Assembly: GCF_004027225.2 (NCBI RefSeq)
Contig: NC_044279.2
Coordinates: forward strand, 47,764,744-47,828,743
Source of the DNA: Strigops habroptila
Taxonomy: Eukaryota > Chordata > Aves > Psittaciformes > Psittacidae
Length of the DNA stretch: 64,000 nucleotides
Reading direction: 5' to 3'
Shown here: positions 12,601-41,283 of the stretch, in pieces
How positions within the stretch are numbered: the stretch's first letter is position 1
Layout of the letters: every line of letters begins with the position of its first letter
Notes under the pieces: model-generated
What the model was told of the DNA's origin: nothing
The model's input: the letters and a program-made list of their open reading frames with translations, nothing else
Database searches by the model: none
Made by a program: the position numbers and the translations under genes

Positions 12601-15600
12601 ATATACTTACCCACAATTTCAGTGGCCAGTTGTGCCGCTTTTTGCTCAAATAAGTCTTTCATTTGCTTAATGTTAAAATTTTCTACTTGGATCTCTTCTA
12701 GTTGCCGTTCTAACGATTCTATTTCCACAAAAAGAACAGTATTATTTTCAGAAGAGCTAGGACAATACAATTATGCCCATAACGAACCACAGCATGTAAA
12801 TAAGTAATCCAAATCCACTTAACATCCAACTAACTTAGCAAAGTGAACAACTTTACTGAAGTTAAATATCTAAAAAGCATGATGCTGGAACCTGTCACTA
12901 GTCGAGTACTCTGCAGGATTAAGTATGTATTGGTTTTCACCGGTCACAAATAGCAACATGCTGCTAAATTGTGAGCCCCAAACTGTGATTAAAAGCTTTA
13001 ATCATGATCAGTCAGATGCTTTATGCACACATAAGGAAAATTCTATTCCATGAGTGACTCATGGAGAAGAATACAGAGCAAAAAGTATTGGTCTGCAAAA
13101 CAAAAAATAAACAGAAAGATCCATTGTTTACTTTGCTAGCAATGAGTACAGAAAAACACTAAATAAAACCAGCCCTCACAAGTGCTATAGTTTAAATATA
13201 AACAATCATAGTCTTTCTCAGCAAGAGACTTGTACTGAATGCTTGAATATATGAAATGATGAAAAACATGCCCAAAACTATTTGTGAGCACTGCTTTCAG
13301 AGTCAGGAGAACTTCTGTCTCATTTCTAGAAATTACAAACCCCAAGCCTCTAGAACTATTTCCTCAGACTATGCCTATCAAGAGCTACCTATCTCAAGCA
13401 CTTACAATGAACTTGTTTTCCAGTAATTGTACCATTCCAGCTTTCTAGCTCTTCAATTTACCAAAAATGCTTTTTCATAAACCTAAAAGCTACACTGAAA
13501 AAAAATCAGGAATCCCAGACAGTGCAGAAATTAATATAATAAAATGGTAGCCACCTGTAGATGTAGCCGTTGTCAATCCATCAGACTTAGAATCCTTAAG
13601 AAAACAGAATAAATGCATCATTAGACAGAAGGAATAAAAACTACTACTACCAAAGTTCACCCCATTTTTGGAAGACAGGGAAATAAAAACTTCCATGCCC
13701 AAATACTGCAAAGCAGATTAAAATACCCAATTTCAAACAGTTATATCTCAAAGACTGAAAAAGGCCAAGATAATTTTCCATTTCATATATCACTACACTA
13801 TCAGGGTTACAGACTTGCAAGACACCAGGAACAGTCCCCTCCCCCTCTCTTTCCTCAATATTGAAATCTGCCCTAAAAACAGAGGTTACAGATATCACTA
13901 AATACATTCTGAGAAGGCATTCTGTCAGAAAGCAATTTCTGAGGTTTGTAACAATCCAGTACGTAATTAGCTCACAGTAATGAAAGAAGCAAGAGCTTCC
14001 TTAAGGCACAACACACCAGCATTTGCCTTGTATTGTTTGTTCAGTTCATTTGGATATCAGTGACATCAAACTACTGTTCTCCAAAAGTTCTTACAAGAAA
14101 GACCTCATCACCCTTCTCATAATAGAGAAATGGCACATTTGGTTTATTTGCTTTAATAAACTGAGCTCTGAATAAGCCCAACAGAAGGAAAAGTCTGAAC
14201 CGGACTTGCAGTGAGTAGTATGGAAGAATCATTATCTATTCTGACTTTGTTCTTCATATTTCTAAATACCTCTCCACAATGCAACTGTATAACTAGCTTT
14301 GTTTTCAAGAACATGTCAATATTCAAATTACAGAACTAACTAAATCAGGCCACGTGCCTTACAAATAAGGTATTAATCTTCAATGTCAATGCTGATGATA
14401 AACCTGCTTCAAGTATTTTAAAGCAATTACTTGCTGCCGCTGCCCCTGCAATTTCTCTAGTTCTTTCTTCAGCTCTTCTGAATACCACCTCTCCTCCTGG
14501 AGGAAAGACATACAAACAAAAAAAAAAGGGAGATGGGGAGAGAGAACTGTAAATTTCGTTGCTTAAGACAGTGGAACATTTTGCAATTTGAAACAAAGAA
14601 CCAAGTGCAATTAAAATACATTTCCAACCTTCAGTGAAGCTTGCAAGTCTTGGACTTCTTGTCGGAGCAGTGATACTTCATCTCTGAATAAATACATCCA
14701 CAGAGTGGAGAAAATGAATATGCAGTGGTTATATGTTGTCAATTACATACAGGTTATAATGTATATTAAATAACTGGAGCAATAGCCATGTACTACATAA
14801 ACATAATAATAAAAATAATAAACATAAATAGTTACTTTTTTGATTTTTTGAAACTTGGAATAAACCAGATTAATAGATACTTATTCGTTCACTTTGCACA
14901 TCACTTGAAAAATGCTAAACATATTAATTGGAAAAGTAAAGAAATAGATATGCAAAAAGTCTCATTAAAACACAGTGTAAATCTAAATGAGTGCATCAGC
15001 TTAATCATGAGTTCAGAATGGCAAAGCTATACAGTGGGACATTTAACTGTTTTGCATGCTTCTTTATGAAAAGAACAGGTTTATTCCCCTTCACTTCCTG
15101 TATCACGTAAAGGAACACTGCTAAAAGACAGCGTGCTATCTCACTCCTTTTGAAATATGCAGTTACATAATTTTTCATGCACACAGCAACTCTGTATGCC
15201 CCAAAGACACATTCACTTAATGGTCTGAATTTTTAAAGCCTTGGGATTTTAAATTCCCAAATTTCGTGCTCAAGCCTCCAACCACGCAAGAACACAAGAT
15301 CCAAGGCTACAACTGTTAACTAATTGATTTAGTCTCCTTACAGAATTGCACAACTATACATGCAAGGATGATGTTGCATTACTGAGATACAGCCACTCCA
15401 AACCTAGAATGCACAGGTCATTAAAATAACGCAAACATATCCTTTCTTATTGTTTGTACAGTGGCAAGACTGAGGAGTACACAGAACTCCTCAGAGTATA
15501 TGTATGTGGGTGCCAATGCCAACAAACTCTCTCAGTTTTATACCATGCAATTTTATTGCTGCTGCACTGCATTATCTCCTCCTTCACAGTTGTCATTTTA

Positions 15601-18600
15601 AATTATTTCATACTTAGGAGGAAAAAAAAAAAAAAAGGCAAAAAACAAAACAACAAAGCAAGCTATTCCTTAGCTGAACTGGGAAGGTATAGATTCAATC
15701 TACATTAGCGTGTTAACATCAGGTCAGGGTCATCAAGAAGCAAGTGAAACACACGCACTTGAACCAGTGAAACAAGAATTCAAAGATGGAACAATTTTAA
15801 TGGCAAAACAAACATAAGATATTGGGAGGCTAATTTTTTTCAGAGGAAGATTTTCTGCTATTTACACATTATTCCGCCTGAGACACTCACTGGAGGTTTG
15901 CAAACACAACTTTACTGAGGCAGGTGTAGCTGTAATCCAAAACCCATACATGGTTGTGGGTGGCAAAGATGGAGCAGCTTTCTCATCAGTATGAGTAAGT
16001 AAACTGGATAATATTCACACCTAAGATTATAAACGAAACCTCAGGCAGGTGAAACAGTTAACTGTATTGAAGCTGGGCTGAACATGTACCAGATCTGCAA
16101 TACTAAAGCATTTAAGATGCTCTGGTCTTTGCAGCAGATAAAAGGTTTTGAGCTGTATAAAACAGTTTGTAGTAGGTGGGAAGGAGGAGGAGAGGAAAAA
16201 GGGAAAAGAGCAGTTCGCTTCGTATTCCCAACACAGTTTTGCTTCACAGTTTTAAGATGAAACCCAAATTCATTTTAACTGACCAGTGGAAAATGGGTGA
16301 AAAAAGTGAAAGGGATCACTGTAGACACAGTAGAAAAAACTGTATTTGTTTTTCTTACTGTCACACAAACCCTCACCAAATCTCTCTTTCTGCTAGGCTT
16401 GCTACAATCCCTTCCTCCTCAGCACATCTGACCCTCACCATCTGGCAAAACCTTACTACTTTTCCTTATGCTCCACTCCATTCTCCATTTGTAGTGCCAG
16501 TGCCTCCATCCTAGCATGGAGTACCAATGGCCTTGTTGAACCGCTTGGGGCAGATTTCCATGATTTACCCTTGGCACATAATCGTGGCAGTTTACTGGAG
16601 GAAGAGGACACAAGGTAATTCACAGTGCCTAGCTTTCTCTATTTACTAAAAAAGGAATTTCAGCTCCCAGTCTTGGTACTATGAATTACATGTAAGCTTC
16701 ACTCCTAGGTGGCTGACAGAGTGGCTCCCTGATGCAGGCTGCAATATTTCTTTAACACAGTATTCCAAGTCTTGGAAAAACATGTTTATGTTGAATGAGA
16801 TTTTCTCAAGCAAGCATGAAACAGAGAAACATTAAAGAATACCACACTAATAGGAAGAAATAGTCATGTGTTACACAACAGCTCTCACCAGACTCCCTTC
16901 ACTCCATCCAAACTCCCTGACCTTGTCCAGTTTTTCAATTACATTAGAGAAAACAAAATCACTTGTCCTTAAACTGCCAAGAGCCAGGAAAAATATAAAT
17001 AAATTTCACGAGCCAACATCTGGTTGACATTGGAAACTTGCAGGCATAAAAATAAATATTTCATAAACTATATAAACAGTATAGTTATTACCAATAATTC
17101 CCTCATGTGAAAGCTATTATTCTACTAAGAGAATCATTTCAGGTCTAAGTTATATCACTCCAAAAAGCCTTAAGTTAGACAGAGAAGAAACACTCATTCT
17201 TGAATAAATGTGCATATAGGAAACCCAATACAACCCCATTAGTACCCTACCACTTTCTCCTGTACTAATGTGAATTTTTAGGACTAATTTTGATTTCTTT
17301 TGTTGCAGCAGCTGGGAGAGAAGGCAGCTATCCACAGGGAAGGGCCCATCCATGCATGAAGACCAGATCTCTACTAATGCTGGCTCTTACTGGCTTGACA
17401 GCTTTGCACAATACTGGGAAGATATGGATCTTCACTGGAATAACAACTGAAACAGGTTACCCTCCACACTCCTTTCTCACCAAAGAACCACCCTCTCTTG
17501 AGTTAGTTACATAAATATCTGTATTTCTTTCAATGTAATTATCATTTTGGGTCACATTTCTACTAGTGACAACACATTTGAACCATTTACTTCCCAGCGT
17601 TGGCAGAAGCCTGCTCTGTTTAACAGATGATCACCTGTGGGGTCGTGCAGTGTGTATGTCTGCTGCTGAACGATGCCACAGGTAGCTGCTCACTCTGACA
17701 CTGCTGCGTACAAGCCAAGGGAGTTTGGGAGGCAGTAACAATACAGCAGCATGGACAGTCACTTACAGCAGTCCAAAATAAACACTGAACAGAGAAAGAA
17801 CTAGAAAGAAGCAAAAGGAAACCTACGTAAATTTTACCCCTAAGAAAAAGCTTCCCAAACCAACACAGGCCAACTACTTGGTTAAACTTTTCTGGAGAAT
17901 GTTTGACATTATCTGTTCCTGCTACCTGATATGTTTCCTAGGAATATATTTAACAATACAGTTTTGATCAAACAGCCAAATAAAATAAATTAGAGAAGAT
18001 TTCTGAAGACCAGCATGGAGTTTCTGGAAGACAGAAGGAGAATTAGTGACAGAGACAAAAAATTCTCAGATTGGCAAATAACTAGGTAATACATAAAACT
18101 ATTTAGGCAAATACTGATGTTGTAATTACCCAGTAGGTAAACTAAATACCCAGGGACAAAATCATGTTTCTTCTCTGTTCAGGGTTGTCCTCCCCACCCT
18201 CAAAAGATGAAATTTCAGCTCTATGCCAGAAATTAGGAGGAACCTGTATTTTTTCTGCCACATTCCTAAAAATCACTCCAGTCTGTAATATTGCATTGCC
18301 ACCTGCATGAGAAACAGGTGACTTAATTAACAATATAAACATGTGTATCTGGTTTCCATAGAATCATAGAACGGTTTGGGCTGGAAAGGACCTTAAGATC
18401 ACCTAGTTCCAACCCACCTGCCAAGGGCAGGGATGACTCACACTAGACCATGTGGCCCAAGGCTCTGTCCAACCTGGCCTTGAACATTGCCAGGGATGGA
18501 GCATTTACCGCTTCTTTGGGAAACCTGTTCCAGTGCCTCACCACCCTCACTGTAAAGAACTTCTTCCTTATATCTAACCTGAACTTTCCCTGCTTAAGTT

Positions 18601-21600
18601 TGAACCCATCACCCCTTGTACTATCAATACAGTCCCTAATGACGAGTTGCTCGCCCGCATCCCTGTAGGCCCCCTTCTGATACTGGAGGGCTGCTAGGAG
18701 GTCTCCACGCAGCCTTCTTTTCTCCAGGGTGAACAGCCGCAACTCTCTCAGCCTGTCTTAATACAGGAGGTGCTCCAGCACTCTTATCATCCTTGTGGCC
18801 CTTCTCTGGACTTGCTCCAACAGCTCCATGTCCTTTATGTTGAGGACACCAGAACTCCACACAGTACCCAAAGTGGAGTCTCATGAGGGCAGAGTAGAGG
18901 GGCAGGATCACCTCCTTTGACCTGCTGGTCACGCTCCTTTTGATGCGGCCCAGGATACGGTTGGCTTTCTTGGCTGCGAGTGCACACTGAAGCCGGCTCA
19001 TGTTCAGTTTCTCATCAATCAACACCCCCAAGTCCTTCTCTACTGGGCTGCTCTGAATCACTTCTCCGCAGCTGTGCCTGGGATTGCCCTGAGCCAGGTG
19101 TAGGACCTTGCACTTGGCTTGGTTGAACTTCATTTATTTTCATTTATTGTCAGATCAGTATCAGCCAATGTAATTTCAAGCAGCTTTTTAACTGCAGTTG
19201 GAAACGGGGCATGAACATTTAAATACTTGGGTACATAACTAAGTGTTCAAATTAATACAGCATTCAGTATAATTAGAAGCAGCTCAACACTGACATGAAA
19301 GCACATGCACAAATGAGTACTGTTTCACCTTTCCGGTGATAGATGACCTTCCCCTCCATGAGTTGAATCAATGCCAGAATTATGAACTGCTTCATAGTGC
19401 TTGAACAGCTCCTCAGCTGATCCATGAGACTTCATACAGAGAGGACAAATAAAGCCCTATTATAAAAAGGAAAACAAAAACAAACAGGTGAGAAGTAAAC
19501 TTTTATTTTTTCCATCTTATTTTTACACGGAATTGTAAATTTTGTTTGTGTATCTAAAACATACCAAATACAATCATTCAATTCATCCTAATTATTTCAT
19601 GCTCCGATAACAGTTTTGGCAATTAAAATATTAGAAAATGCCTACTAAAGACATATTCCATTATTCAGTGGGTTTTTCCCCAACAATATTACATACTAGC
19701 AACAAAACTTTTATTTAGAAAAATTAAAAGTGATTTCATAAAGACTGCTCTACAATTTCTTCCCCCCCCAAGAAAAGAATTTTCCATACAATCTGATTCT
19801 TCTTTCAAAGAGAAGGTAGGGTGTGGAGATTGGTCTTAAAAAACGAGATACAAAAGTCCACTCTAAGAATTCAACAACCAAACATTTAACTCACATACAT
19901 GTGCGCATTCCAAAACGGCTACAGAAAATGTGTTAAACTACTAGGTTTCCAGTAATGTTTATCTGATACCATTATCATATGATGGCAGTGACAGTCATTC
20001 TGAGCACAAGAACCAGAGCGAGATCCCTGGCAAACAGCAACAGCAATGAAGCATAGGAGGGGTCAAAAAGCAAGTGACTTAGTTTTCCTAGTAGATGAAA
20101 GCAGTCAATCACATACAATGACAGTACAACAGCATCCTTTTAGGATGAACTGCTACCAAGCAGTTCTCAGTGATATATTTAGTTTCCCAGTCATGGGAAG
20201 GTCTGCTGTTGACAGAGAAAAGCAAGTGTTCCTCATAGCACGAGTAAGTGCATCTAGAAAGAACAAGTGTAGAAAATTGCACCGGCCTCTCCTTCCTTTT
20301 GTCCTTTATTTCTTCCCATTTAAAGGGCAAAATCTGTTTCTCTGCTTGGGTTTTTGTTTGGGGTTTGTTGTGGTTTTTTGGGGTTGGTTTTTTTTTCTTT
20401 TTTTTTTTTTTTTTTTTGTGGCTGGGTTTTATTCTGCGGAAAGAGGAGCCCCGGAGAAGAGGAAAGAATAGATTCCTTGTGCAATTAGCCCAAAGTGACA
20501 GCAATCATTCATCTCAACTATTAGGCAAAGCCAGCCCAAGATTTCCCAGGCAGGCAGATCTGAACACAGTTGCTGCAAGGATGAGAGGCCAGAGGCAGAG
20601 CGGAACTGCCGAGCCAAGGGAACATGCTGCAGCTGAGAGGCCACAGGGTGGACTGGAGCTCTGGGGGGGGCAGACCTGCTGTCAGCAGCAGAGGGGGGAA
20701 GCATGGACAAAACCTTCTCTTTATGGTAGAAACCCCCCTCCTCTCACTCAGGTGGGGATAAAAAGTGCATCATCCACCAACCCAAGCTGCTCCACTGGCA
20801 TTGTCATGACCATGGCTGGCCTCACTTTTTGAGGACCTGGTACTGTTGAAGTCAGCACTGGGTTACACCTCTCATAGACACCATTACTCCAGCTGAGCAT
20901 TTCCTAGAGGTCTGATGCACAAGCTCTAACAGAATAAGATGTCATCCTGCTGTAACGGGGCATCATCACCATAGAAAATGTCACCCTTCCTGTGCAGAGC
21001 CAGGGTGGACGGGAACACTGGGTCCTACAGCTGCAGGCACTGCTGTTAGCACATCAGAGCCTTAGACTGCATGAATGCAGGACCCAGCTGCATCTCACGG
21101 GCTGGTAGTATTCAGATGTCAACTCTGATGTCAGCAGCATTAGTTCAGTTCTCTTCAGAGTAAAAAAAAATCAGAATCATCAGGATCTTCCTGGGCACCA
21201 GACAGTTACAGACACAAGTGTAAAGGTTTCCTGGGCCTGCAATTATTAGCCCCAAGCGCCAATTTTATTCAGGAACATGGGCTGATGCGTCTCTTGTTTT
21301 CTCTCTTAAAAAAAAAAAAAAAAGAAAAAAGAACAAAAAAATTGAATACAGCCATAAAATTACCTCTCTCAGCATCATCTTGAGATGAATTTTGAAAATA
21401 TATGCAAGAAGTGTATTTTACTACTCTAAAGACAAATGTGTGAGAAGGGAGAGGGGAAGAAATGTGATAGTCCAAGATGCTTAAATCTTGTAAGCATTTC
21501 TGTTGGTTTGCAGGGATTTATATCAAGTGCAAGCTACTCCTATGTGGGGACCATGCCTGCCCTGGGTAAAGAGGAGATTGCACAGTTACATCCATGAATG

Positions 21601-27600: not shown

Positions 27601-30600
27601 AAGTAAAAAGTACTGACAAGTAACTGATTATGGAAAAACAAACTGGGCAAGAACCCACAGACAACTTAATGAAACTATGTTAAACACAACCCAGCTTAAA
27701 TAAGAGAGTACCTTCTTCAGGTAACCAAATCGTCTCTGATGGCTCACATCCCACAATCTACCCTTACCATCTCATCAGGAATGCCACAGTATGTCACTGG
27801 TAAGTCACAGCTTATTCAAGTAAGGTGCTTGCATTGTGACCAGATAATAAGGAATATATGTTCAAAAAGAATACACTGGTGACTGCAAGCATCCCAATTA
27901 CCACAAATGTTTCACGTGAGAGACAACTGCAAATCAGAAAACTAGATATAGATTAATTCTTCTGCTGAATGTATACTTTGCAATCATGCATAAGAGGTCA
28001 AATTATGTTTCAGCAAGGAATCAAAAGAAACAATTTAAAAAGCTGACACCCAAACAAGAAGAAAAGATGTAGGTTCATTTAAAGCAGCCCATTACCAAAG
28101 CTATTGAAACAAAATAAACAAGACCCACAGTAACAGCTGGGAGGTCACGAGGCTCCTGTCTTCCTTCTGTCTCAGTGTGCTCATTCTGGTAATGTTCAGA
28201 CATATCAGTGGGAGTAACACACACTTTCATACACAGTGGACAGATGAAGCCCTGTGAAATGTATATTTGTTTTTAAGAAACTAATAATGACAAAAAAGCA
28301 GATTTGGAATCAAACGCTGTTCAAATTCTTATGCTGAAAGTTCTCTACAATCACCAAAGTAAGGTCTGTTTCCCTTTTGGAAAGATAGTTTTTTCAAAAC
28401 ACATCTGAATATCATGGAGAAGGCAAGAAGGAACAGTTATTAAGAACATGAAAATAAACAAATCGAAATCACACTTTAAAAGCTGGCACCATGCTGCACA
28501 CTGTGTGTTCCAGGCACTCTTGGTATCCCTTTCATGCGACAGAGGAATAAGCTGCATAACGACATGTGAATGGACTGTTACAAGGCATCAGGTCAGATCC
28601 CTCACACAGTTTTCCATAAGGGTGTTCAGATGCTTCACAGGGAGAGGCAAGGGTGGTGTGGTGAGATTGCAGAAATACCCTTGTAAATTAACAAGCAAGG
28701 TTGCAGCAGCAGGATAGGCCCAAGTGCCAGCATGCCTGCCTGGCTGCCATGCTCACATAGGGAAAATTATGCACCTTCCTTGGTAGGATTTAAAAAAAAC
28801 CAACTCAGCATACTCACCAGAGATTTACCAAAGCCACAAGTTAAATTGGTTTCTACAGAACAACAGCTTTACATCTTCAAGACACATGCTACATGCTTAA
28901 ACACCTACAGAAAGTAGGCTAGAGAGTAAAGTGCTCTGATGCTTCCACCTCCATGGCAGAGCACTACAGACGAAGGTAGAACAGACTGAACACAACTCTC
29001 CATGGATGCACGGTAAAGCTAAGACCCCTTACAAAAAGGACGTCTGTGGCAAACCTGTCCAGCTCATGCAGCCACGTTACACTTGTGAAAGTGTAAGCAT
29101 GTTGGCGGACTCACTGCAAGCATGGAATATTTAGCAACTGCAGACAGTGTTGCACTGGGACCTAAGCTACAAAGGTAGGATAGATGCAAACGTTTCCTCC
29201 TTGGACAGACTGCAGTGAATAAATGATGTCTCTAGACCTGATTACAGGTCTATGTGTGATCTGAAATGCTGACATGGCCACAGACCAGACTAAAACAGAT
29301 TTTTACCTCTCCTTGAGCCAGGAACAGTTTGAATTCAGAATTCCCCACTCATACTATAATTCTCAAAAATCAGGATTGGTTTCAACCAGGCTTGAGGAAG
29401 TAGGAAACATGAGAATCTGTGCAGATTTAATAATTATTCTCCATTTGAATCTTGCAGCAATACAAATTACAAAATCTAGCCAAAAATATTGGAGCGCAAA
29501 CAAGTTAACTGGATTTCTGTCTACATAATACTGAAGAACCAGGTGGCAATATAACAGTAAAACAGAGAACAAACACTCTGCAGAGTCCCACCTATGGTGC
29601 TCCTGGAGAGAAGCTCTCACAGAGGCAACATCTCAGGCCAGCTGTGCAGGAAAAGGAAGACCAACAGAAAGGCTCGAGTTGCATGCTGCAACCCATGAAT
29701 CTCAGGAGAGTAAAAACCCATCACCAGCTTCAGAGCTCAGCTTGAAACAGATTTTGAATATGCTAAGCAGAACACCCCACTTGTAACTAATGCAACAAAT
29801 GGCACAATTATTGACAACTAACAGACAGTTTTTCACGTTATACAGTATCAACCAAAAGTGCTATGGCAGCCTTTGGTCTCACCCAGTTTTGACTCGGTAG
29901 CAAGAAAAACCAATGGTGCAACAGTGCAGGCACACCACCGCTTTGAAAGCTCACCCTACATTAAGAAAATACTACTATATTAGTGTTGAGGTACCTTGTG
30001 ACACCCACAAGCTGCACAGTCAGTGATACTGCACTCATGCTAACAGAATTGTGCAATTTTAGCCAAACTTTGGAAAGAAGCAATTACCTCACTGCACATT
30101 TTTATGCCTTAATTAACTACAGAAGTAATGAAATTTTAGTCTGGAATTCAAGAATATTTATTTGCTTCAGGGACAGCGTAAATATGCATGTAAGGCAGAT
30201 TTGAATTCACAAATGCATGACTTGTGTAACATGCAACAAAATATTAAGGAATGTCTGATTATACTGACTGCAATAAGGCTTCAAAAATAAGAAATAAGCA
30301 GATACGCAGATGCAAGGCAATCAGGATTTTAAACAGCACAGTGAAAGTTTCTCCTCTTATCACAGAAGACATTGGAGTATTTATATCATCATACACTTTA
30401 TTCAGTGTAAGAAAAGGCACTTTGCTCCCTTTAATGCTGTAATAGGAGTAATGAACCTTGCACTGCATTTGTATGCTAAGCTTGAAACAGGTAATCAGGC
30501 TACATTAGCACAAACTAGCTTCAACAGCCAGTGAAATCAGTTGGATTTTTCAGAGTTAATATTTGACAACACCGTAAATCCAAAGACATTGTACTATGGG

Positions 30601-33600
30601 ATTGAAGAAAGGACGACAACTTATTCTGCTGGTTAAGTATGGCAAACAGCACATAAAAATGAATAGGATTTACAAGGGGTAGATTTATACACCAACACCA
30701 AACAAAACCCAACACATTTGATATTTCGCAACGAGGAGGAGGATTCCCCGTATAGTTATAGTTTAGCAGAAGCAAGGTGAAAAGGGAGTACAAGTGTGAT
30801 AAAATGTTAAGCTCTGGGTTTTTTTGGAACTCTTATAAAATATTTACTAATATTTACTTAAGCTTATGTCTCATTGCTTTGAATTTTAATAATTCATCTC
30901 TAGGATTACAGAAGTATTGCTTGTGAACATTTAGATAGATAAGCCTAATTAACATTTACATATAAATATGGCCTAGCCTTCCTTTTTTTTTTACTTAAAA
31001 AACAACCAATTCTTATAAAGTGACACTTCTGAGTATTTATGTAGTACAGCTGTTAATTAGGTAGGGCATCAAAAGTTACTCTCAACAGCTTCATGGACCA
31101 GAGAAACAGCACCCAAGGTTTAAGACTTCAGTCCCATGTATGGTGCACAGTACCTCGGAGGAGCCTTCATTGTTCACGTCCACGGCATTTCCTGGTGTGG
31201 CAGATGAATCTGAATCTGAGCTCTGAGATCCACCCCTACCTGGAGTCTGAAATAGAGGGAGAAGAAAAAAAAAATGAGAGTCAACAGACTGTACTTAATA
31301 AAGCATGGTGCGCATGCAAAGGTCTCTCTTCTACTTGCTGGAATACAGAAGTATTTTCCCTCCACGAGAGTAACGAAGTGAACAAGCTGACACTCAATTA
31401 TATAATTTTCAGTGCAACACTTCAACAAAAGCTTTTATCCAAGACTCTCCATGCATCAAAGAACAAGCAGATACCAGAAGCAAAGGCCAGGATTTTAAAC
31501 CACTTCCTCTCATGAACACTCAATAAAAAACAAAGAAGTAGGCTAAATTCTGTCCTTATATTATTGACTCTGATGTTAAATTAGGTCTCTATATCTAATA
31601 GAGAAACACTAGAAATTACAATCTAAACAGCTTCAGAAGTAGTAAACTAGTATCATACTACTTGCTTGACAACTTGTTTACAATCTGAACAAACTTTTAA
31701 ATATTTGAAAGAAAACTGAAGAGTGAGGGCCATGCTGATGTAATACACATGCAAGAAGGTACACTGCCTTGATTTGGAAAAAATACAAATGAAGCCTGTT
31801 AATAAGAAAGACAACCTATAAAAAGACCTCCTATGAATATGCTGAAAATGAAAACAACAGTTTTTGAAACTACAGATTTAGACAAAATAAGCAAATCAAT
31901 TTGAAATACTACACGATTCAAAATCCGGATAGATGGATCGCAGCTTATAATGCTTACTTAACTATAGCTTTGATTTAAATTTAACTTCTCTTACTCATCT
32001 CCAGAACTGCTTGACCGATGGCAGAAAACCTAGTCGCCTCAAAGGAAACACAAGTAAAGAAATTATTTTGATATTGATATGCAACCCTAGTTTCAACAAA
32101 AGTTTATTATCCAATTCCATTATGACAATTGCAAATGGGATGAAGTAATGCTATTGCTGTAGCTTAGCCCATCTGCAAATACTTGTAATGTTATAAAGGA
32201 TTTTCTAATTTAATATAGGGGTATTAAAGATACAGAATTTTAACTACACAGATTGAAATCTACAGAGAAGGAGAGAAGTAGATAGTTTTCATTTCTAGAT
32301 CCTGGTGTCTCCAAAATAGCATTTGTTTTTGAGTTTTCATGCTCAAATATATCCTTTTTTTCCCCTACACAAATCAACTATATAACCTTTTATAAGATAT
32401 CTGGAGCATGCATGCTTTTCCATTCTTTGAAGATAAAGTACATTTTCCTGCTTTGTTTTGTAAAGAATGTTCTATTTCCAACTTTCATAAAGATAAATTC
32501 TTATTACTAATTAAATAAAAATATGTAATAAAAAGGCCAAGTTTACTGATTAAGGACTTAATTCCCAGAGAGATACAGTTTAATTTCAGAAACGCTCCAA
32601 AGACTGGCCAAAGGGAAGTGAGGAGGAGTGAAGCAGCAAGCTATTGGAGCTGATAACAGTGAGAGGACTATCTCTCCTCATTCCAGCCTTCTCTGGGGTT
32701 ATCAGTTAAGGGATGAACACACGCTAGTTCTCCTACTCCCATGACTTTTTTTATTGTAGCTGGTTTATGTTTCTAAAGAAAGAAAGAACACCATAGTTTC
32801 TAGTACAGCATACCAAAGCAACAGGCAAGGTGATGCAAGGTCACCAAGTTAATAATAGGAGAGGCAGAAAAAAGTATAAGCAAAGAATACGATGCACGTG
32901 CAAACCACATCAAAATGAAGGGATCAATCAGTACTTCTCCTCCAGGTTACTGATACAGACAGTAAACAAGGCACATCACAGCATGGACCATGGGTGCATG
33001 CTCATCAAGTTTTCATATGACATCAAACTGAGAGAACCAGTTGATACCTTCAGGGACAGGGTCACTCAGGGGATATAGATAGGCTGAAGGAATGGGCCAA
33101 CAGGAACCTCATGCAATTCAACAGGGACAAACAACGAGTCCTGTGCCTGGGAAGGAAAACCCCTGGCAGAAACACAGGCCTCTGCGGAAAAACACCTGGG
33201 GCTCGTGTCAGACAGCAAGCAGAACAAGAGCTAGCAGAGTTCCGTGGCAGCAGAGAGGGCCACCAGCACCCTGGGTTGCAGCAACAGGAGCCCAGCCAAC
33301 CAAGGGAAGTGATGACCCCACCAATGGCCAACACCGTGGGACCACATCAAGATATCGCACCCAGTCTTGGCTCTCCCAATCCAGGGAGGACATTGACAAA
33401 ACAGAGTAAGTTCAGCAGAAGGCCACAAAGGGAGCTGGAGCACTTGACCTGTGGGAGAGGCTGAGGGAACAGGGCTGGCTCAGCTTGGAGTTCTGGAAGG
33501 GCCTAACAGCAGCCCCACCACCATCTATGAGGAGGTCATCAAAGAGAGAAAGCCAGGCTGCTCCCAGCAGCGCATAGTGGGAGGAAAATACACAAAAACT

Positions 33601-36600: not shown

Positions 36601-39600
36601 GAGCAACAGGACCTTACCACCCAAACACAGCAGTCACTAACAGTTGCAGACAGCCAGTTTAACACAAAGACTGAAGACAAAAACTACTGTAAACAGTAGT
36701 CAAACTGGCCCAACAGATGAGTCCTTCACTACAAAACACCAGCGATGAGAAGAACGCTCAGGAGAAGGTCAAAGTAATTCTTCTTTCACCAGCTGAAAAT
36801 AAATGCCTCCTTATTACAAAAAGTGGGGACTTTTTAATTTTGGGGGATTTGGTTGGTGGGTTTTGGGGGTTTTTTTAAGTTTTGGTATCTTGCAAATATA
36901 AGAAGTGAGCTCTCCTTTAACAGATCAGAGGCAACAGCCACTGCCCTGCTAGTAGATGAGCAAAGGAGAGGGGAGACAATGGCCACAAAGGGCCTTCAGA
37001 GTTGAACACAATAAAGAATAGGCAGCTCTCTAAAGAATACGCTGACAAATATCAAAATATCTTGGCAGTAAAGATCGTGTCTCAGACATTCCACACAGGT
37101 GTCTTTTGGGAAAGACAGCCTTTTTCTAGATCAGCATGACGAACCATGCACAGAACTGAGAAGTGGCAAGAATGAATGAACGGGGGTTTTACAGTGCAAA
37201 TGTACAGAACAGATGGATCCCCGAGATGTCACATGGAAAACACACATAACATTTAGAAACAGCTTGCAGGGAAAGGACCTAAACTGAGGACCTAGCTGAA
37301 GACAGCATGGAAATACTAACTTCAAACACTAAATGAGCAATGTTCAGTAGTGACAAGTATGTAATTTCTATTTCGAAAATATGCCATTCAAAGTGACCAC
37401 GAAGATGCTTTTAAAAACACAAATTAACCCGTGGAAGAAATAAAAAGGTGATCAAGGCACAGAAGCAGTATAAAAAAGAAACATCTGATGTTTTAAAAAG
37501 TCAGGATTCAGACTTTCAAATAAGTGACTAAAACTATAAACAGTATCTTTGTAGCTTGATGGCCAGCTGAGTTACAAATAAAAAAGGAATGTAATAATTA
37601 GGGGTTTTTAAACATACTTCCATAACTCAAGTTATATCACCAGTAATGACTAGCCATCCACCTAGAAAGGATGGCACCACCTATAATCAAATAATAAACC
37701 CAATACGTATAAAAGAAACTACATTTCAGTGACTGGAAGGTGGATTTCTTTTCCCATTTACATTAATGATGCCCAAGAAAAGGGTCAAGAGGTGGTTCCT
37801 TGGCCTTCAAGCTATTGCCTCAGAGACATGAAAGATTTTAATACCTATGCTCTTTATAAACAGATTTGACAGCATGCTAAAGCTCACTGTTAACACCAAA
37901 GTACATCAGAAGTCTTTTTCATACTTTGCCAACCACAGACTGTAAGTCAGAAAGGTATGTATGAGGTTGTACATGCAATCACTATTTTTCTAAAAGCTCT
38001 CTCAGGAAGAGGTGTTTTTTTAAAAGCATAGTTATTTACACCAATTAAAATATTAACACCTTTGAAAATCTTGGCATTTCTCTATTTTGGGGCAGGAAGA
38101 AGTCTGTTTTGCCTTTCTTGTAATTAGCTTTGCTGTAATCCTGTAATTTTCGGGAGCCACTAGGGAAGTTATTTCTTTAAACTTTTCAGAGAAGATGACC
38201 ACTTCCAACACATGAAAACTTTCACACTGACTTTAGATTTTTGTAGGAAGTGTTTAGACAAACTTATATTTAGAGGCAAATTTCCTTTGGCACTGTATTG
38301 AGCTTCCTCCTCTATCAAAGAGGCTTTCTTTGCTGGCCTGTTATTTCTCAGAATCAATAAACACTCAGTTAAAAGCTGCCAATATTTAATTAGGTACACA
38401 CTAAGTTTCCCTGCTTGTTAGTAGGGCTTCCCATCAAACTTCAGGAAGGAAGTTCTTCCCTGTAAACACAAAGGTCCAATTAGACCAAGAGTGCTCCTCA
38501 CCTGCTTAGGGGTCTATGACCGAAAAACAACGTGAGGCACGCTTTACACTGAAAAACTTGGGGGCATGCATACTGATGTACTTTCTTCCCCTCTGTTAAT
38601 TCTCACTCCTGTAGCAACGCTTTCTTGCATGGCAGCTGAAGAAAGCATGCCAGCATTTCCAATAAAACATCCTTCCATAGACGTGTTATGCAGACAGCAT
38701 GCTTTGAAAGAAATACTTGAAAGACACCTCAGATAAAACACGCAGGGCAGCTGGTTTCTCCTCTACCCGTGAGCGCCTTTCACAAGGCACTGTGCGGGAT
38801 CTGGAGCGCTGCCTTCCCACCGCCGCCGTGACTCAACCCTTTTGGGTGCATCCTTCAGCCGAGCGCCAGAGACGGACTCCCCGAGCCCTGAGCCACGCTG
38901 ACTGACACCTGCCCTTCCCTTCACCAGCACCTCCCCGACGGCTTCCACCCGAGCCACCAGCGAACTTCAAGGTGGTTAGTACCGCCGCGGCGATACGCGA
39001 GCATTTTGGAAGGAGAAAAAGGTTTCATAAACGAGTGTCACAAGTTGGCTTCACAAAGCAGGCAGAGCTGCCGGAAAAGCCGGTTCCTAACATAAGGGAG
39101 ACCGCTGGCCGGTGGCTGCCGGGGTGGCTTTCGGCGTCGGGAGCCTGTTGCCTGCTGGTCCCCGGGGAAACCACCCCAGATCCCCGCGGTGGCTCTCCCC
39201 AGGCGGAATTTCCCTGAACCTGCCCAAAGCGCGGCCGGCTCGGAGCCCCCGCGACGACCGAAGGTGGCGGGCGGAGACGCCGCCGCCGCGCTACGAAAAA
39301 GAGCCACGCCGGGGCAGGGCCGCCCCTCGCGCCACCGGCAGGCCCCTCTCCCGGCCGCGGGGGCCCACCCGCTGCCGGCACCCCCGCCCAGCCCGAGGGA
39401 CGCGCATCGCGGGCCCGGCGCGGCCCGGCCCGCCCTGTCGGGGCTCGGGCCGTCCCCCACGGCAGGGCGAGGAGGCGGCGGCGGACAAGCCCACGGCCTC
39501 TGCAGCCACCACGGGCCTATCCCCTCTGCTGCGCCGCAGGACGGGCCGGGCCGGGCCGGGCCGAGCCGGGCCGGGCCGAGCCGGTGACTCCGGCCGCGCC

Positions 39601-39749
39601 GCGGGGAGCCCGGCCCCGAGCGCTGCCGGCACCAGGAAGCGGCACCTCCCCGCCACGCCACGGCACGGCACGGCAGGGCACGCCGCCCTCACCGCCGCCA
39701 ACCGGGGCGGGTCTCACTGCCTTACCCGCTGCAGAATTCGCCTGAACAT
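309..39749 (-). CDS. EEA1: EEA1, early endosome antigen 1 (5' part: 11 canonical exons, gene continues past left edge)
   Basis: EEA1 is a Rab5 effector. It is a long, parallel coiled-coil homodimer that tethers early endosomes before SNARE-mediated fusion. Its N-terminal C2H2 finger binds Rab5-GTP; its C-terminal FYVE domain binds PI3P and a second Rab5. Eleven minus-strand exons here join to 416 codons (join of 39749-39726, 31246-31154, 19456-19329, 14683-14629, 14496-14431, 13594-13555, 12718-12611, 12524-12403, 10798-10643, 5567-5451, 647-309). All junctions are GT-AG and phases agree across every intron. The product aligns with human EEA1 from MLRRILQR through the finger (residues 40-64) into the heptad-rich coil. 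The start is chosen by homology and a GCCACC-ATG context. About the last 1000 residues, including FYVE, lie outside the window. Human family length is about 1411 residues. A further candidate cassette exon sits in intron 2. Confidence 0.97.
648..5450 (-). other. EEA1 intron 10
   Basis: AT-rich intron of 4.8 kb. It contains an A14 tract at 1015-1028 and a CR1 fragment at 4499-4845. I see no further exon; short ORFs here have no recognisable similarity. Confidence 0.85.
4499..4845 (-). mobile_element. CR1 LINE 3' fragment
   Basis: Read on the plus strand it begins TAGAATCATAGAATCAACTA, the reverse complement of a CR1 3' end, then continues with diagnostic CR1 text (GTCCAACCGTTACCCCAGGA, CTGTTCCAACACCTGATCAC). 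It extends into the ORF2 C-terminal region near GTTGTAGAGAGCG. It is 5' truncated and same-sense as EEA1. It is closely related to the copy at 50306-50608. Confidence 0.93.
5451..5567 (-). CDS. EEA1: EEA1 exon 10 (residues 265-303)
   Basis: The 117-nt exon, phase 0/0, lies between GAGCAG|GCT and CAG|GTGAGA, both close to consensus. It starts [20 protein letters not shown] and ends [10 protein letters not shown], against human [20 protein letters not shown] and SVNELTQKNQ. The AKGPQEV segment carries a Gly-Pro likely to interrupt the coil, as in human. Confidence 0.97.
8801..8843. repeat. Short tandem repeat, unit about 15 nt
   Basis: Two to three imperfect copies of a unit resembling AACTAAAAGGTCTTA. 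Intronic and probably a local slippage product. Confidence 0.6.
9117..9370 (-). mobile_element. CR1 LINE 3' fragment
   Basis: Begins GAATCACAGAATCATAGAAT on the plus strand and contains TCCAACCTGGCCTTGAACAC and CTGTTCCAGTGCCTCACCAC, standard CR1 3' sequence in reverse complement. It covers the 3' UTR and the last part of ORF2, 5' truncated, same-sense as EEA1. Confidence 0.94.
10074..10089. repeat. A16 homopolymer tract
   Basis: Uninterrupted A run in intron 9, followed by further A-rich bases. No retroposed gene body is recognisable next to it. Confidence 0.85.
10643..10798 (-). CDS. EEA1: EEA1 exon 9 (residues 213-264)
   Basis: The 156-nt exon, phase 0/0, has a strong acceptor (AACTTTTCAG|CTA) and donor GAG|GTAATA. 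It reads [20 protein letters not shown], then [20 protein letters not shown]. Human EEA1 has [20 protein letters not shown] and nearly the same continuation. The end ([12 protein letters not shown]) is more diverged. Parallel coiled coil. Confidence 0.97.
10799..12402 (-). other. EEA1 intron 8
   Basis: A 1.6-kb intron. It includes a purine-rich stretch on the plus strand (about 11480-11640) and a 178-codon minus-strand ORF (12385-11849) that I do not recognise. No repeat is identifiable. Confidence 0.85.
12403..12524 (-). CDS. EEA1: EEA1 exon 8 (residues 172-212)
   Basis: The 122-nt exon has acceptor TTATTAG|AAC and donor CTG|GTATTT. It reads [17 protein letters not shown] followed by an Asn/Gln/Glu-rich coil ending VEDLKTEL. 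This matches human IKSKYDEERSLREAAEQ ... IQDLKTEL. The phase 1 start joins exon 7 to give Glu172; the end is phase 0. The intron to exon 7 is only 86 nt. Confidence 0.95.
12525..12610 (-). other. EEA1 intron 7 (86 nt)
   Basis: Short intron bounded by GTAAGT and TTATTAG on the minus strand. It is close to the minimum size seen for vertebrate introns. Confidence 0.92.
12611..12718 (-). CDS. EEA1: EEA1 exon 7 (residues 136-172)
   Basis: The 108-nt exon lies between GGAAATAG|AATCG and GTGG|GTAAGT. It reads [10 protein letters not shown] then [19 protein letters not shown] and LATEIV, near-identical to human EEA1 over the [21 protein letters not shown] core. It starts and ends in phase 1. It is amphipathic coiled coil. 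Confidence 0.96.
12719..13554 (-). other. EEA1 intron 6
   Basis: An 836-nt AT-rich intron with no recognisable repeat or exon. Confidence 0.88.
13555..13594 (-). CDS. EEA1: EEA1 exon 6 (40-nt microexon-like, residues 123-136)
   Basis: Acceptor is TTTTCTTAAG|GAT with a good pyrimidine tract; donor is ACAG|GTGGCT. It encodes [13 protein letters not shown] plus the first base of Glu136. This matches the position of human EAKPDGLVTDSSAE but is weakly conserved and, with the next junction, two residues shorter. It is a polar, helix-breaking linker in the coiled coil. The phase 1 end fits the AA that starts exon 7. Confidence 0.88.
13595..14430 (-). other. EEA1 intron 5
   Basis: An 836-nt intron with no recognisable repeat. 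It ends in a clear polypyrimidine tract before exon 6. Confidence 0.88.
14431..14496 (-). CDS. EEA1: EEA1 exon 5 (residues 101-122)
   Basis: The 66-nt exon, phase 0/0, lies between CCTCCAG|GAG and CAA|GTAATT. It starts [18 protein letters not shown], matching human [18 protein letters not shown], then a Gln/Arg run. It is coiled-coil sequence, separated from exon 4 by an intron of only 132 nt. Confidence 0.95.
14629..14683 (-). CDS. EEA1: EEA1 exon 4 (residues 82-100, start of coiled coil)
   Basis: The 55-nt exon has acceptor TATTCAG|A and donor AAG|GTTGGA. One base completes Arg82; then it reads [18 protein letters not shown], against human [18 protein letters not shown]. Leucine heptads begin the long coiled coil directly after the finger. 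Confidence 0.95.
14684..19328 (-). other. EEA1 intron 3
   Basis: A 4.6-kb intron. It contains an A15 tract (15622-15636) and a CR1 fragment retaining part of ORF2 (18358-19133). Otherwise AT-rich with nothing recognisable. Confidence 0.87.
18358..19133 (-). mobile_element. CR1 LINE fragment with degenerate ORF2 C-terminus
   Basis: The 3' end is at 18358 (ATAGAATCATAGAACGGTTT on the plus strand). Reading minus from 19133, the translation starts [20 protein letters not shown] and contains [14 protein letters not shown] and [12 protein letters not shown], typical of the CR1 reverse transcriptase C-terminal region. After about 165 codons the frame shifts; the continuation ([39 protein letters not shown]) is found at 18742-18443. 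It is therefore 5' truncated and inactive. Same-sense as EEA1. Confidence 0.96.
19329..19456 (-). CDS. EEA1: EEA1 exon 3, canonical Rab5-binding C2H2 zinc finger (residues 40-82)
   Basis: The 128-nt exon starts in phase 0 (ATAATAG|GGC) and ends in phase 2 (GGAAAG|GTGAAA). It begins [18 protein letters not shown] and reads on through KHYEAVH, matching human GFICPQCMKSLGSADELF. Zinc ligands are Cys43, Cys46, His59 and His64. Residues known from the human EEA1-Rab5 structure to contact Rab5 (Phe41, Ile42, Pro44, Met47, Tyr60) are all present. After the finger come a HGGEG motif and the start of the coiled coil. Confidence 0.97.
20350..20417. repeat. G/T-rich tract ending in long poly-T
   Basis: Alternating T runs and GGGG blocks followed by an almost pure T run (20388-20417, one C). 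Low-complexity sequence; it generates spurious Phe/Gly/Trp and Lys ORFs on the two strands. Confidence 0.85.
21308..21340. repeat. A-rich tract
   Basis: A16 run followed by interrupted A runs; simple repeat. Confidence 0.85.
24212..24270. repeat. A/C-rich low-complexity tract
   Basis: Runs of A broken by G and C, grading into AAACAACCAAACCCC; simple repeat with no adjacent retroposon body visible. Confidence 0.8.
24836..24884 (-). mobile_element. CR1 LINE 3' tail (about 49 nt)
   Basis: TAGAATCATAGAATGGTTTG then GGTTGGAAGGGACCTTAAAG on the plus strand matches the terminal CR1 3' sequence. Extremely 5' truncated, as is common for CR1. Same-sense as EEA1. Confidence 0.9.
28129..28251 (-). CDS. 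EEA1: Candidate cassette exon encoding a second EEA1-type C2H2 zinc finger
   Basis: In intron 2, between exons 2 and 3, there is a 41-codon open stretch with acceptor ATTTCACAG|GGC and donor ACT|GTGGGT. It starts GFICPLCMK, identical in protein to the start of the canonical finger exon. It then keeps Cys, Cys, His-Tyr and His at C-x2-C-x12-H-x4-H spacing (if spliced after exon 2: C43, C46, H59, Y60, H64). The rest differs ([10 protein letters not shown] before HYQNEH). A linker rich in Glu, Arg and Pro follows. The codons for the shared nine residues differ only at synonymous positions, which points to an old, selected duplication. Both ends are phase 0, so inclusion keeps the EEA1 frame and gives tandem fingers. 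Replacing exon 3 with it would break the frame at exon 4. The donor is only moderate, so usage is inferred. It could also be a decaying exon. Confidence 0.75.
31154..31246 (-). CDS. EEA1: EEA1 exon 2 (residues 9-39)
   Basis: The 93-nt exon is phase 0 at both ends (CTATTTCAG|ACT ... GAG|GTACTG). It begins TPGRGGSQ and ends [10 protein letters not shown], clearly homologous to human TPGRVGSQ ... VDVNNESSSE. It is a Ser/Asp/Thr-rich disordered linker in front of the zinc finger. Its last residue is Glu39, which in human EEA1 immediately precedes the Rab5-contacting finger start. Confidence 0.96.
32990..33765 (+). mobile_element. Degenerate CR1 LINE fragment (opposite strand to EEA1)
   Basis: Plus-strand reading shows decayed CR1 ORF2 traces: [17 protein letters not shown], then in another frame [16 protein letters not shown]. 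The 3' part resembles the CR1 terminus (GACCTCTGAGCTGGTCCTGC, then AGCAGGAGCTC). Many frameshifts and stops; older than the other copies. Boundaries are approximate. Confidence 0.8.
35830..35871. repeat. Short inverted repeat (14-nt arms, 14-nt loop)
   Basis: AAAATGACAGGGTA is followed 14 nt later by TACCGTGTCATTTT. The arms pair at 13 of 14 positions with one central G/G mismatch. It lies in intron 1 outside any recognised transposon. Function is unknown; it is too short for a miRNA precursor. Confidence 0.7.
39541..39583. repeat. GC pentamer repeat (CGGGC/CGAGC units)
   Basis: About eight tandem GGGCC/GAGCC-type units in intron 1, about 145 nt downstream of the exon 1 donor in the EEA1 direction. 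A related CGGCA repeat lies at about 39660-39680. Confidence 0.85.
39726..39749 (-). CDS. EEA1: EEA1 exon 1 (coding part, residues 1-8)
   Basis: This exon encodes MFRRILQR, matching human MLRRILQR, and ends at CGG|GTAAGG in phase 0. The ATG lies in GCCACCATGT on the minus strand, a near-ideal Kozak context (A at -3, though +4 is T). It sits within the CpG island. The frame stays open upstream to another ATG at 39962, but that stretch is Arg/Pro/Gly/Ala-rich CpG-island translation with no EEA1 resemblance, so I take 39749 as the start. Confidence 0.95.
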
Positions 39750-40696
39750 GGTGGCGGAGCCCGGATGCCGCCGGGCGGCCGCGGCCAGGCCGAGGAGAAA
39801 GCCGGGGGGCCCCGCACAGCACCGCCCCCGCCCCGCAGGAGCCCGGCGCGGCCCGCTCGCCCCGTGACAGCCGCCGCGGCCGCGGAGGCGGGGCAGCCGC
39901 CTCACCGCCCCGCCCCGGGGAGGGACGGGCCCGGGGGGACGGGGTTGCCACCGCCTGCCCACGGGGCGCGGAACGGGGGAAGGGAGATCGGGGGAAGAGG
40001 GGCCGGAGCGCCCGGGCGCAGGACGCCAGGCTGGCGGGGCTGCCCCTCGGGACGGGGTGGCTGTGGCGGCGCGGGGTCCGCGCCCCCATCTCCGCGGGGC
40101 CCGGGCCGGGCTCCTTCCCTGCGCGCCGGGCCCAGTACCGCGCCTCTGTCAGCACTGGAGAGCCCCCTGCTCGCCGCCAGTGTCTGTGCCGCCCGGGAGG
40201 CTGCGGAGGGAGAAGCGGGGACGGCGGTGCCTCCCCCGGCCCTCGCCCGCTGCCCGCTCGGCCTGCAGAGCCCGCGCAGGCCGCTGGTGGTGGGGCAGGA
40301 GCGTTGCGGGTCCCCGGCAGCTCGCCCTCAGGGGCTGCCGCGGCAGCTGCGGGGCTCCTCGCTGCTGTCACTGCTCCAGAATCGGGTCCTGGGCAGGGGA
40401 AGGAAACGAGCTGTAGTTTGAACTTGCAGGTGCCGGTCCCCAGCACGAGCCAGAGCGCCAGCGCAGCTCCGTGTTACTGTGCTAGTCGTGAGGTGTTGGA
40501 AGTGCTCAGGAATGCACGTTAGAGGAGTATGGCTGAAACGTACTCATTTGGACAATGAACTGAAAATTTAATTCTGGAGGAACAAGCTGCTTCCTTCAAG
40601 CCCTGAATTGAAAAGGCGACCTTGTGGCATGACCCATTAGATGTTCTTTAAATGTCAGAAAAGAACATTTTGCTGCACAAACGCACACCTACCTTC

Positions 40697-40759: not shown

Positions 40760-41283
40760 GGTGAGGCCCCACCAAGATGTACTGCATTCACCTCAGGGGC
40801 CCGCAACACAAGAAGCATGTGGACCTGTTGGAGCGAGTCCAGAGGAGGCCACAAAGATGATCCGAGGGCTGGAACACCTCTCCTACAAAACAGGCTCAGA
40901 GTTGGGCTTCTTCAGCCTGGAGAAGAGAAGGCGGAGGCCTTACAATAGTCTTCCAATACCTAAAGGGGGCCTACAAGAAATTTGGAGAGGGACTTTCTAC
41001 AAGGGCATGTAGTGACAGGACAAGGGGGAATGGCTTTAAACTGAAAGAGGGTAGATTCACATTAGACATTAGGAAGAAGTTCTTTACCGTGAGGGTGGTG
41101 AAGCACTGGCGTAGGTTGCCCAGAGAAGCTGTGGCTGCCCCATCCCCAGCAGTGTTCAAGGCCAGGTTGGACGGGGCTTGCAGCAACCTGGTCTAGTGGA
41201 AGGTGTCTGCCCACAGCAGGGGGGTTGGAACTATGTGATCTTTAAGGTCCCTACCAGCCCAAACTATTCTATGATTCTATGAT
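40760..41283 (+). mobile_element. CR1 LINE fragment with intact 3' end
   Basis: Starts within ORF2 (TGAGGCCCCACCAAGATGTA, translating into MIRGLEHLSYK and FSLEKRRRRPYN). It continues through [12 protein letters not shown] sequence and ends with TATTCTATGATTCTATGA, the CR1 terminal octamer repeat. It carries small frameshifts. It sits just upstream of the EEA1 promoter island, on the opposite strand to EEA1. Confidence 0.96.

Follow-up and report, generated by a model that had tools for sequence, protein, structure and literature searches.

The window analysed here (the whole stretch of 64,000 nucleotides from Strigops habroptila) carries the 5′ part of EEA1 on its minus strand, comprising exons 1 to 4 and later exons of the coil. 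EEA1 serves as the standard marker of early endosomes and as their tether. The coding part of exon 1 gives the same start (MFRRILQR) as the EEA1 models P0007 and P0012, exon 3 matches the PDB entry 3mjh by sequence (E 4.4e-12), and one of the coil exons encodes 49 residues that are identical in the Merops nubicus model P0001. Entry 3mjh, named Early endosome antigen 1, is presumably the EEA1 finger in complex with Rab5. Between exons 2 and 3 lies a further candidate exon, called the cassette below. The features, in the order in which the gene reads them, are:

39726..39749, minus strand: EEA1 exon 1, coding part (MFRRILQR), read directly; phase 0 at its end
31154..31246, minus strand: EEA1 exon 2 (TPGR...GSSE), 93 nt, phase 0/0; the cassette would be spliced to its donor
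28252..28260, minus strand: cassette 3′ splice site ATTTCACAG, score 7.46
28129..28251, minus strand: candidate second-finger cassette exon, 123 nt, 41 codons, phase 0/0, in intron 2 (between exons 2 and 3)
28123..28128, minus strand: cassette 5′ splice site GTGGGT, score 3.59, weak; the last exon base is T
19329..19456, minus strand: EEA1 exon 3, canonical C2H2 finger, 128 nt, phase 0 at its start and phase 2 at its end
14629..14683, minus strand: EEA1 exon 4, completing an Arg codon followed by 18 more residues, read directly

A first-pass annotation of this sequence had described the cassette as a 41-codon open segment with a zinc-finger spacing and splice dinucleotides at both ends, and that description was confirmed letter for letter (28251-28129, minus strand). 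On the minus strand the segment is flanked by AG at 28253-28252 and by GT at 28128-28127 (donor GTGGGT), and it encodes a C-x2-C-x12-H-x4-H finger whose ligands are Cys4, Cys7, His20 and His25, including the His-Tyr pair. Its first nine residues (GFICPLCMK) are identical to those of the canonical finger. As had also been claimed, the nine shared codons differ at synonymous sites only: 5 of 27 bases, all of them third positions. The features kept from the canonical finger are the Phe-Ile before the first Cys, the Pro, the Met-Lys and the His-Tyr.

The cassette and exon 3 (from 19456) are entered in the same phase. Inclusion of the cassette between exons 2 and 3 adds 41 residues and keeps the frame, as expected of a symmetric 0/0 exon. 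A direct join to exon 4 would read Thr-Arg-stop, so the cassette can act as an add-on only; mutually exclusive use with exon 3 is ruled out by the frame (123 nt with phases 0,0 against 128 nt with phases 0,2). When splice sites are scored with an approximate matrix, the cassette acceptor reaches 7.46, against 7.45 for exon 3 and 10.08 for exon 2, and the cassette donor 3.59, against 3.42 for exon 2 and 6.79 for exon 3; 12.6% of GTs on the window's minus strand score as high as the cassette donor. The cassette splice sites are of the order of EEA1's own, with a weak donor. Weak sites fit an optional exon, and fall short of proof of one.

Other features were seen in the window around these exons. 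Reading-frame remnants in EEA1 introns and upstream of EEA1 (18443-19133 and 4586-4864, minus strand; 40861-41196, plus strand) are, by the look of their translations, presumably CR1-like LINEs. Around exon 1, at 39000-40500, long open frames run on both strands with GC-rich-looking translations, a pattern as expected of a CpG-island promoter.

Two-finger EEA1 models in skate and bichir

With a conserved coil exon as query, 85 EEA1-like proteins were fetched of 89 candidates, spanning mammals, reptiles, amphibians, bony and cartilaginous fishes and one bird. Two tandem fingers occur in 3 of these 85 models:

P0039: Rhinoraja longicauda, isoform X6
P0041: Rhinoraja longicauda, isoform X3
P0045: Polypterus senegalus, isoform X2

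In all three, a 43-residue extra finger stands between ..SE and the canonical GFICP, which is the junction at which the cassette would be inserted. These are gene models, known here from protein alone; the two-finger arrangement is already present in public protein models, and the first-pass suggestion that a second finger might extend beyond birds was borne out by them. A simple text rule finds exon 2 running straight into exon 3 in 55 of the 85. The remaining 27 are truncated, start elsewhere or have different residues at the junction (one of them, P0050, also joins exon 2 to exon 3 and is too short for the text rule). In Merops P0001, the single bird model found, exon 2 is followed immediately by exon 3 and the cassette is left out. 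These counts describe models: an exon missing from a protein model is not the same as an exon missing from the genome, and the protein database was clustered at 90% identity, where one- and two-finger isoforms may share one representative. A protein search with the cassette alone returned no match and also missed models that carry GFICPLCMK, such as P0007, and is hence insensitive. Sensitivity was likewise limited in a search with the skate N-terminus: of 14 candidates scored, 6 were returned, and the bichir was not among them.

Some models in the set have unusual structures of other kinds. The Bombina bombina model P0016 (2012 aa) contains a reverse-transcriptase domain (PF00078), probably from a mis-joined LINE. 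Several teleost models (P0040, P0043, P0058, P0060, P0065, P0069, P0074 and P0076, among others) have short non-finger stretches between exons 2 and 3, which resemble a retained intron or moved acceptors.

The fish models also bear on where the cassette ends. Transcripts could read through the donor to a TGA beyond it, or splice from the cassette to exon 4, giving a short EEA1 piece that competes for Rab. The Thr-Arg-stop at the exon 4 join would allow this, the frame stays open for 17 codons past the donor, and polyA-like hexamers lie downstream, the first at 27122. Yet the cassette ends where the skate and bichir inserts end, those models run on into the canonical finger and a full protein, and 41 codons keep the frame exactly, all of which makes a truncating end quite improbable.

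Which finger the cassette encodes

The window is rich in open frames (198 stop-to-stop frames reach at least 70 aa), and one could ask whether the cassette is simply a chance reading frame in an intron. This was rejected by translating the window in all six frames and scanning the 2175 open segments of at least 20 aa with a profile made from the skate and bichir first fingers only, the bird sequence being excluded. The cassette scored 47.3 bits (E 1.7e-13) and the canonical exon 36.4, while the next segment reached 8.9 (E 0.18). A plain tblastn with the Merops protein also reaches the cassette (E 0.001). The segment is almost certainly not a chance frame.

Searches of the bird's own genome (1.149 Gb in 89 contigs) returned, for the cassette DNA with short flanks, one listed match, which is the cassette itself. 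The cassette protein gave five other matches among those listed, with E from 0.05 to 7: two KCMF1-like fingers on contigs C25 (E 0.05) and C26 (E 0.41), a rabenosyn-5-like finger on C11 (E 0.32), the canonical EEA1 finger (E 1.5) and a stretch on C1 that contains a stop (E 7). The C26 stretch equals the KCMF1 finger (9qws) at 28 of 28 residues. With two KCMF1-like loci, on C25 and C26, a KCMF1 paralogue may exist in this genome. The own-genome fingers nearest the cassette are:

L003:1501-1587, KCMF1-like
L004:1501-1587, rabenosyn-5-like, which we take to be rabenosyn-5
L005:1501-1584, KCMF1-like

The body of the finger was compared over positions 10-26 with the two ligand His removed, leaving 15 residues, against 100,000 shuffles. 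Identity is highest with skate finger 1 (8/15, p 1e-5, the shuffle floor), lower with bichir finger 1 (4/15; BLOSUM p ~1e-4, identity p 0.015) and lowest with the bird's own canonical finger (1/15, identity p 0.58). As controls, the own-genome KCMF1-like finger shares 5/15 (BLOSUM p 0.001, identity p 0.009) and the rabenosyn-5-like finger 2/15 (p 0.03 by BLOSUM, 0.26 by identity). C2H2 fingers share some general likeness here; against it the skate finger stands out, and the bichir finger does not by identity. Identity counts over residues 1-26 read similarly, with 17 for skate finger 1 and 12 each for bichir finger 1 and the own canonical finger; bichir finger 1 has 14 identities with canonical fingers. 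The KCMF1 control and these counts therefore weaken the bichir comparison.

Comparisons over longer stretches and by profile place the cassette with the first fingers. Aligned over its whole length, it has 19 of 43 identical columns with skate and 16 of 43 with bichir. The skate and bichir profile gives it 50.4 bits, against at most 41.7 for 20 distinct canonical fingers, and a canonical profile gives it 32.0 bits, the same as skate finger 1, against 72.8 or more for canonical fingers. In a tree built on 28 columns, the cassette and the two fish first fingers part from 17 canonical fingers (92/92), with long branches meeting and an unsettled bootstrap. The tails that follow the finger are weakly alike (shuffle p 0.07 against skate, 0.006 against bichir). 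We conclude from these comparisons that the cassette is a likely orthologue of the skate first-finger exon. The relation of the bichir first-finger exon to it is supported by position and by the joint skate and bichir profile. The case for sequence orthology of the cassette is carried mainly by skate and by position; taken alone, neither the tree nor the structure model (below) adds much.

The first-pass reading of the cassette as a copy of the canonical finger stood in part. The first nine residues and the ligands are shared, and the rest of the finger hardly at all. The cassette holds up as a homologue of EEA1 finger exons. Its nearest group is the first fingers of skate and bichir, the latter ambiguous by plain identity, and it is not a near copy of the canonical exon. 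Recent duplication of that exon, or recent conversion by it, was rejected: 5 of the 9 leading codons have a different third base, and what follows them is unlike. A processed copy is not supported: the similarity begins at the exon boundary and exon 2 is not included. An origin from KCMF1 or rabenosyn-5 was also set aside, since both are less like the cassette than skate finger 1 is and lie on other contigs.

The sharp limit of the likeness to the canonical finger could also mean that only the first 27 nt (GFICPLCMK) are used. An internal GT after 28225 on the minus strand (AAA|GTGTGT) scores 5.87, higher than the 3.59 of the cassette donor, and its use would leave a 27-nt microexon in frame and in phase 0, ending exactly where the unbroken match to the canonical finger stops. 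Such a product would, however, have neither of the His ligands, and it would leave out residues 10-26, where 8 of the 15 non-ligand residues agree with skate finger 1. A microexon of this kind is very improbable.

Probable age, constraint and use

If the cassette is orthologous to the skate exon, its origin goes back at least to the split between cartilaginous and bony vertebrates, an age taken from the species. Whether its marks could have outlasted a period without function was simulated under neutrality (4000 runs per distance), with survival defined as intact splice dinucleotides, an open frame and all four ligands. At 0.1 substitutions per site, 21% of copies survived without indels and 6% with them (assumed rate 0.1 per substitution); the corresponding figures were 5% and 0.4% at 0.2, and 1.25% and 0.03% at 0.3. 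Long neutral drift of the cassette is thus unlikely. A recent loss of its use is possible on the same simulation.

The main rival reading builds on that last point: the cassette was functional in early vertebrates and survives in the skate and bichir annotation, but is unspliced in this bird lineage and has not yet decayed. It would account for the weak donor and for the absence of the cassette from the bird model P0001, and at 0.1 substitutions per site about a fifth of simulated copies (far fewer with indels) stay intact. Set against it are the frame, the four ligands, both splice dinucleotides and the nine residues shared with the canonical finger, all intact here, and the steep fall of simulated survival at 0.2 and 0.3. 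We regard such a relic as unlikely.

The third-position-only changes in the nine shared codons agree with constraint on the protein, and speak against recent conversion. Taken with the skate and bichir counterparts and the simulated losses, they support the earlier proposal that the cassette is old and protein-constrained. Most likely it descends from the jawed-vertebrate ancestor and has been kept under protein-level constraint. As far as sequence can indicate, it looks like an old optional part of an endosome-tethering protein, not a chance frame. The cassette is probably an ancient, intact, optional coding exon of EEA1 whose inclusion between exons 2 and 3 would give two tandem N-terminal C2H2 fingers. 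On this explanation selection would have maintained it ever since jawed vertebrates last shared an ancestor, and birds would splice it in at certain stages or in certain cell types.

Among the literature matches listed (titles and the starts of abstracts), no paper concerns a second EEA1 finger, and EEA1 is not mentioned in the excerpted main text of a survey of human tandem exons (PMC9741552). Cattle EEA1 is named in an excerpt of PMC8948961 among genes with differential alternative splicing in paratuberculosis. A second finger could have escaped notice if human and rodent cells are without it.

Possible Rab binding and comparison with known fingers

An AlphaFold2 model of the cassette, made from two sequences, has a strand-strand-helix fold with a mean pLDDT of 76.6 (88 for residues 1-10, 91 for 11-20). 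Foldseek against the PDB gave no match for this model at E <= 0.001; there were 117 at E <= 10 (best 0.97), and the best 50 of the 117 are mostly C2H2 fingers, none significant and 3mjh not among them. By sequence, the cassette matches KCMF1 chains in the PDB at E 0.0049 and 3mjh at E 0.0086. Pfam C2H2 models match the cassette below their cut-offs, and the canonical finger likewise.

The Pro, Met and Tyr of the canonical EEA1 finger are, we assume, Rab5 contacts. In skate finger 1 the canonical Tyr is replaced by Asp, and in bichir finger 1 the Met is replaced by Ile, which means that Rab5 binding may not be the conserved function and that another partner is possible there. Excerpts of PMC4102244 and PMC5624781 give no Rab contact residues for the EEA1 finger. 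As described in an excerpt of PMC7036122, EEA1 is a parallel coiled-coil homodimer with an N-terminal C2H2 finger and a C-terminal Rab5 site. Excerpts of PMC10397212 report that the N-terminal affinity of EEA1 for Rab5 is weak and that the finger contact triggers endosome conversion in human cells. They also report that the double mutation F41A and I42A at the C2H2 site of human EEA1 impairs Rab5 binding; in EEA1-knockout HeLa cells the mutant protein failed to restore maturation events, and it left conversions unimpaired in RPE1 cells with wild-type EEA1. An interaction of EEA1 with Rab21 is reported in an excerpt of PMC12162657.

The Phe-Ile pair altered in the human F41A and I42A mutant is retained in the cassette, so a second Rab-binding finger is the likely effect of including it. 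The added finger would bind a GTP-loaded Rab of the Rab5 group, like the canonical finger, and in a parallel dimer two weak N-terminal Rab contacts would become four. Capture and tethering at the N-terminus would be raised, and the FYVE end would be unchanged. Alternatively, the extra contact could be for a different Rab, for example Rab22 or Rab21. Extra Rab capture at the N-terminus is offered as the best reading, and a change of Rab preference as a bolder one. Either way, the number, strength or kind of Rab contacts would be altered by a second finger that is optional and conserved. If real, such a two-finger EEA1 would be a naturally occurring protein for asking whether tethering and maturation are governed by avidity at the N-terminus.

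A broader proposal, which we hold tentatively and would lean against, is that the ancestral EEA1 of jawed vertebrates was a Rab effector with two fingers, that the first finger has since drifted towards its own Rab preference (Rab21, Rab22 or Rab31 over Rab5), and that its inclusion is regulated in birds, skates and bichirs and has been lost or silenced in mammals and many teleosts. Were this true, the single-finger EEA1 studied by the tethering field would be a reduced form.

Among known systems, the skate and bichir two-finger EEA1 models are alike in having an extra C2H2 finger, in frame, at the exon 2/3 junction, with the same ligand spacing and a similar length (43 residues against the 41 of the bird cassette). 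They differ in sequence (19 and 16 of 43 aligned columns identical) and in being named protein models, whereas the sole bird model found omits the exon. The canonical EEA1 finger (3mjh) shares the GFICP-x-C-M-K start, the C-x2-C-x12-H-x4-H spacing, the His-Tyr and the entry phase; it differs at positions 10-26 (1/15), and the cassette ends in phase 0, not 2, so that the two are not interchangeable. The rabenosyn-5 N-terminal finger (L004, GFLCPLCLKDLQSFYQLQSHYEEEHS) has the ligand spacing, a GF-x-CPLC-x-K start and the His-Tyr, but lies on another contig and is more distant (E 0.32, 2/15 at positions 10-26). The KCMF1 finger (9qws, L003, L005) shares the ligand spacing and, in L003, an EH-x3-EHTET at the end of the helix; it belongs to a ubiquitin ligase gene elsewhere, is without GFIC, CMK and His-Tyr, and agrees with the cassette at 5 of the 15 compared places in positions 10-26.
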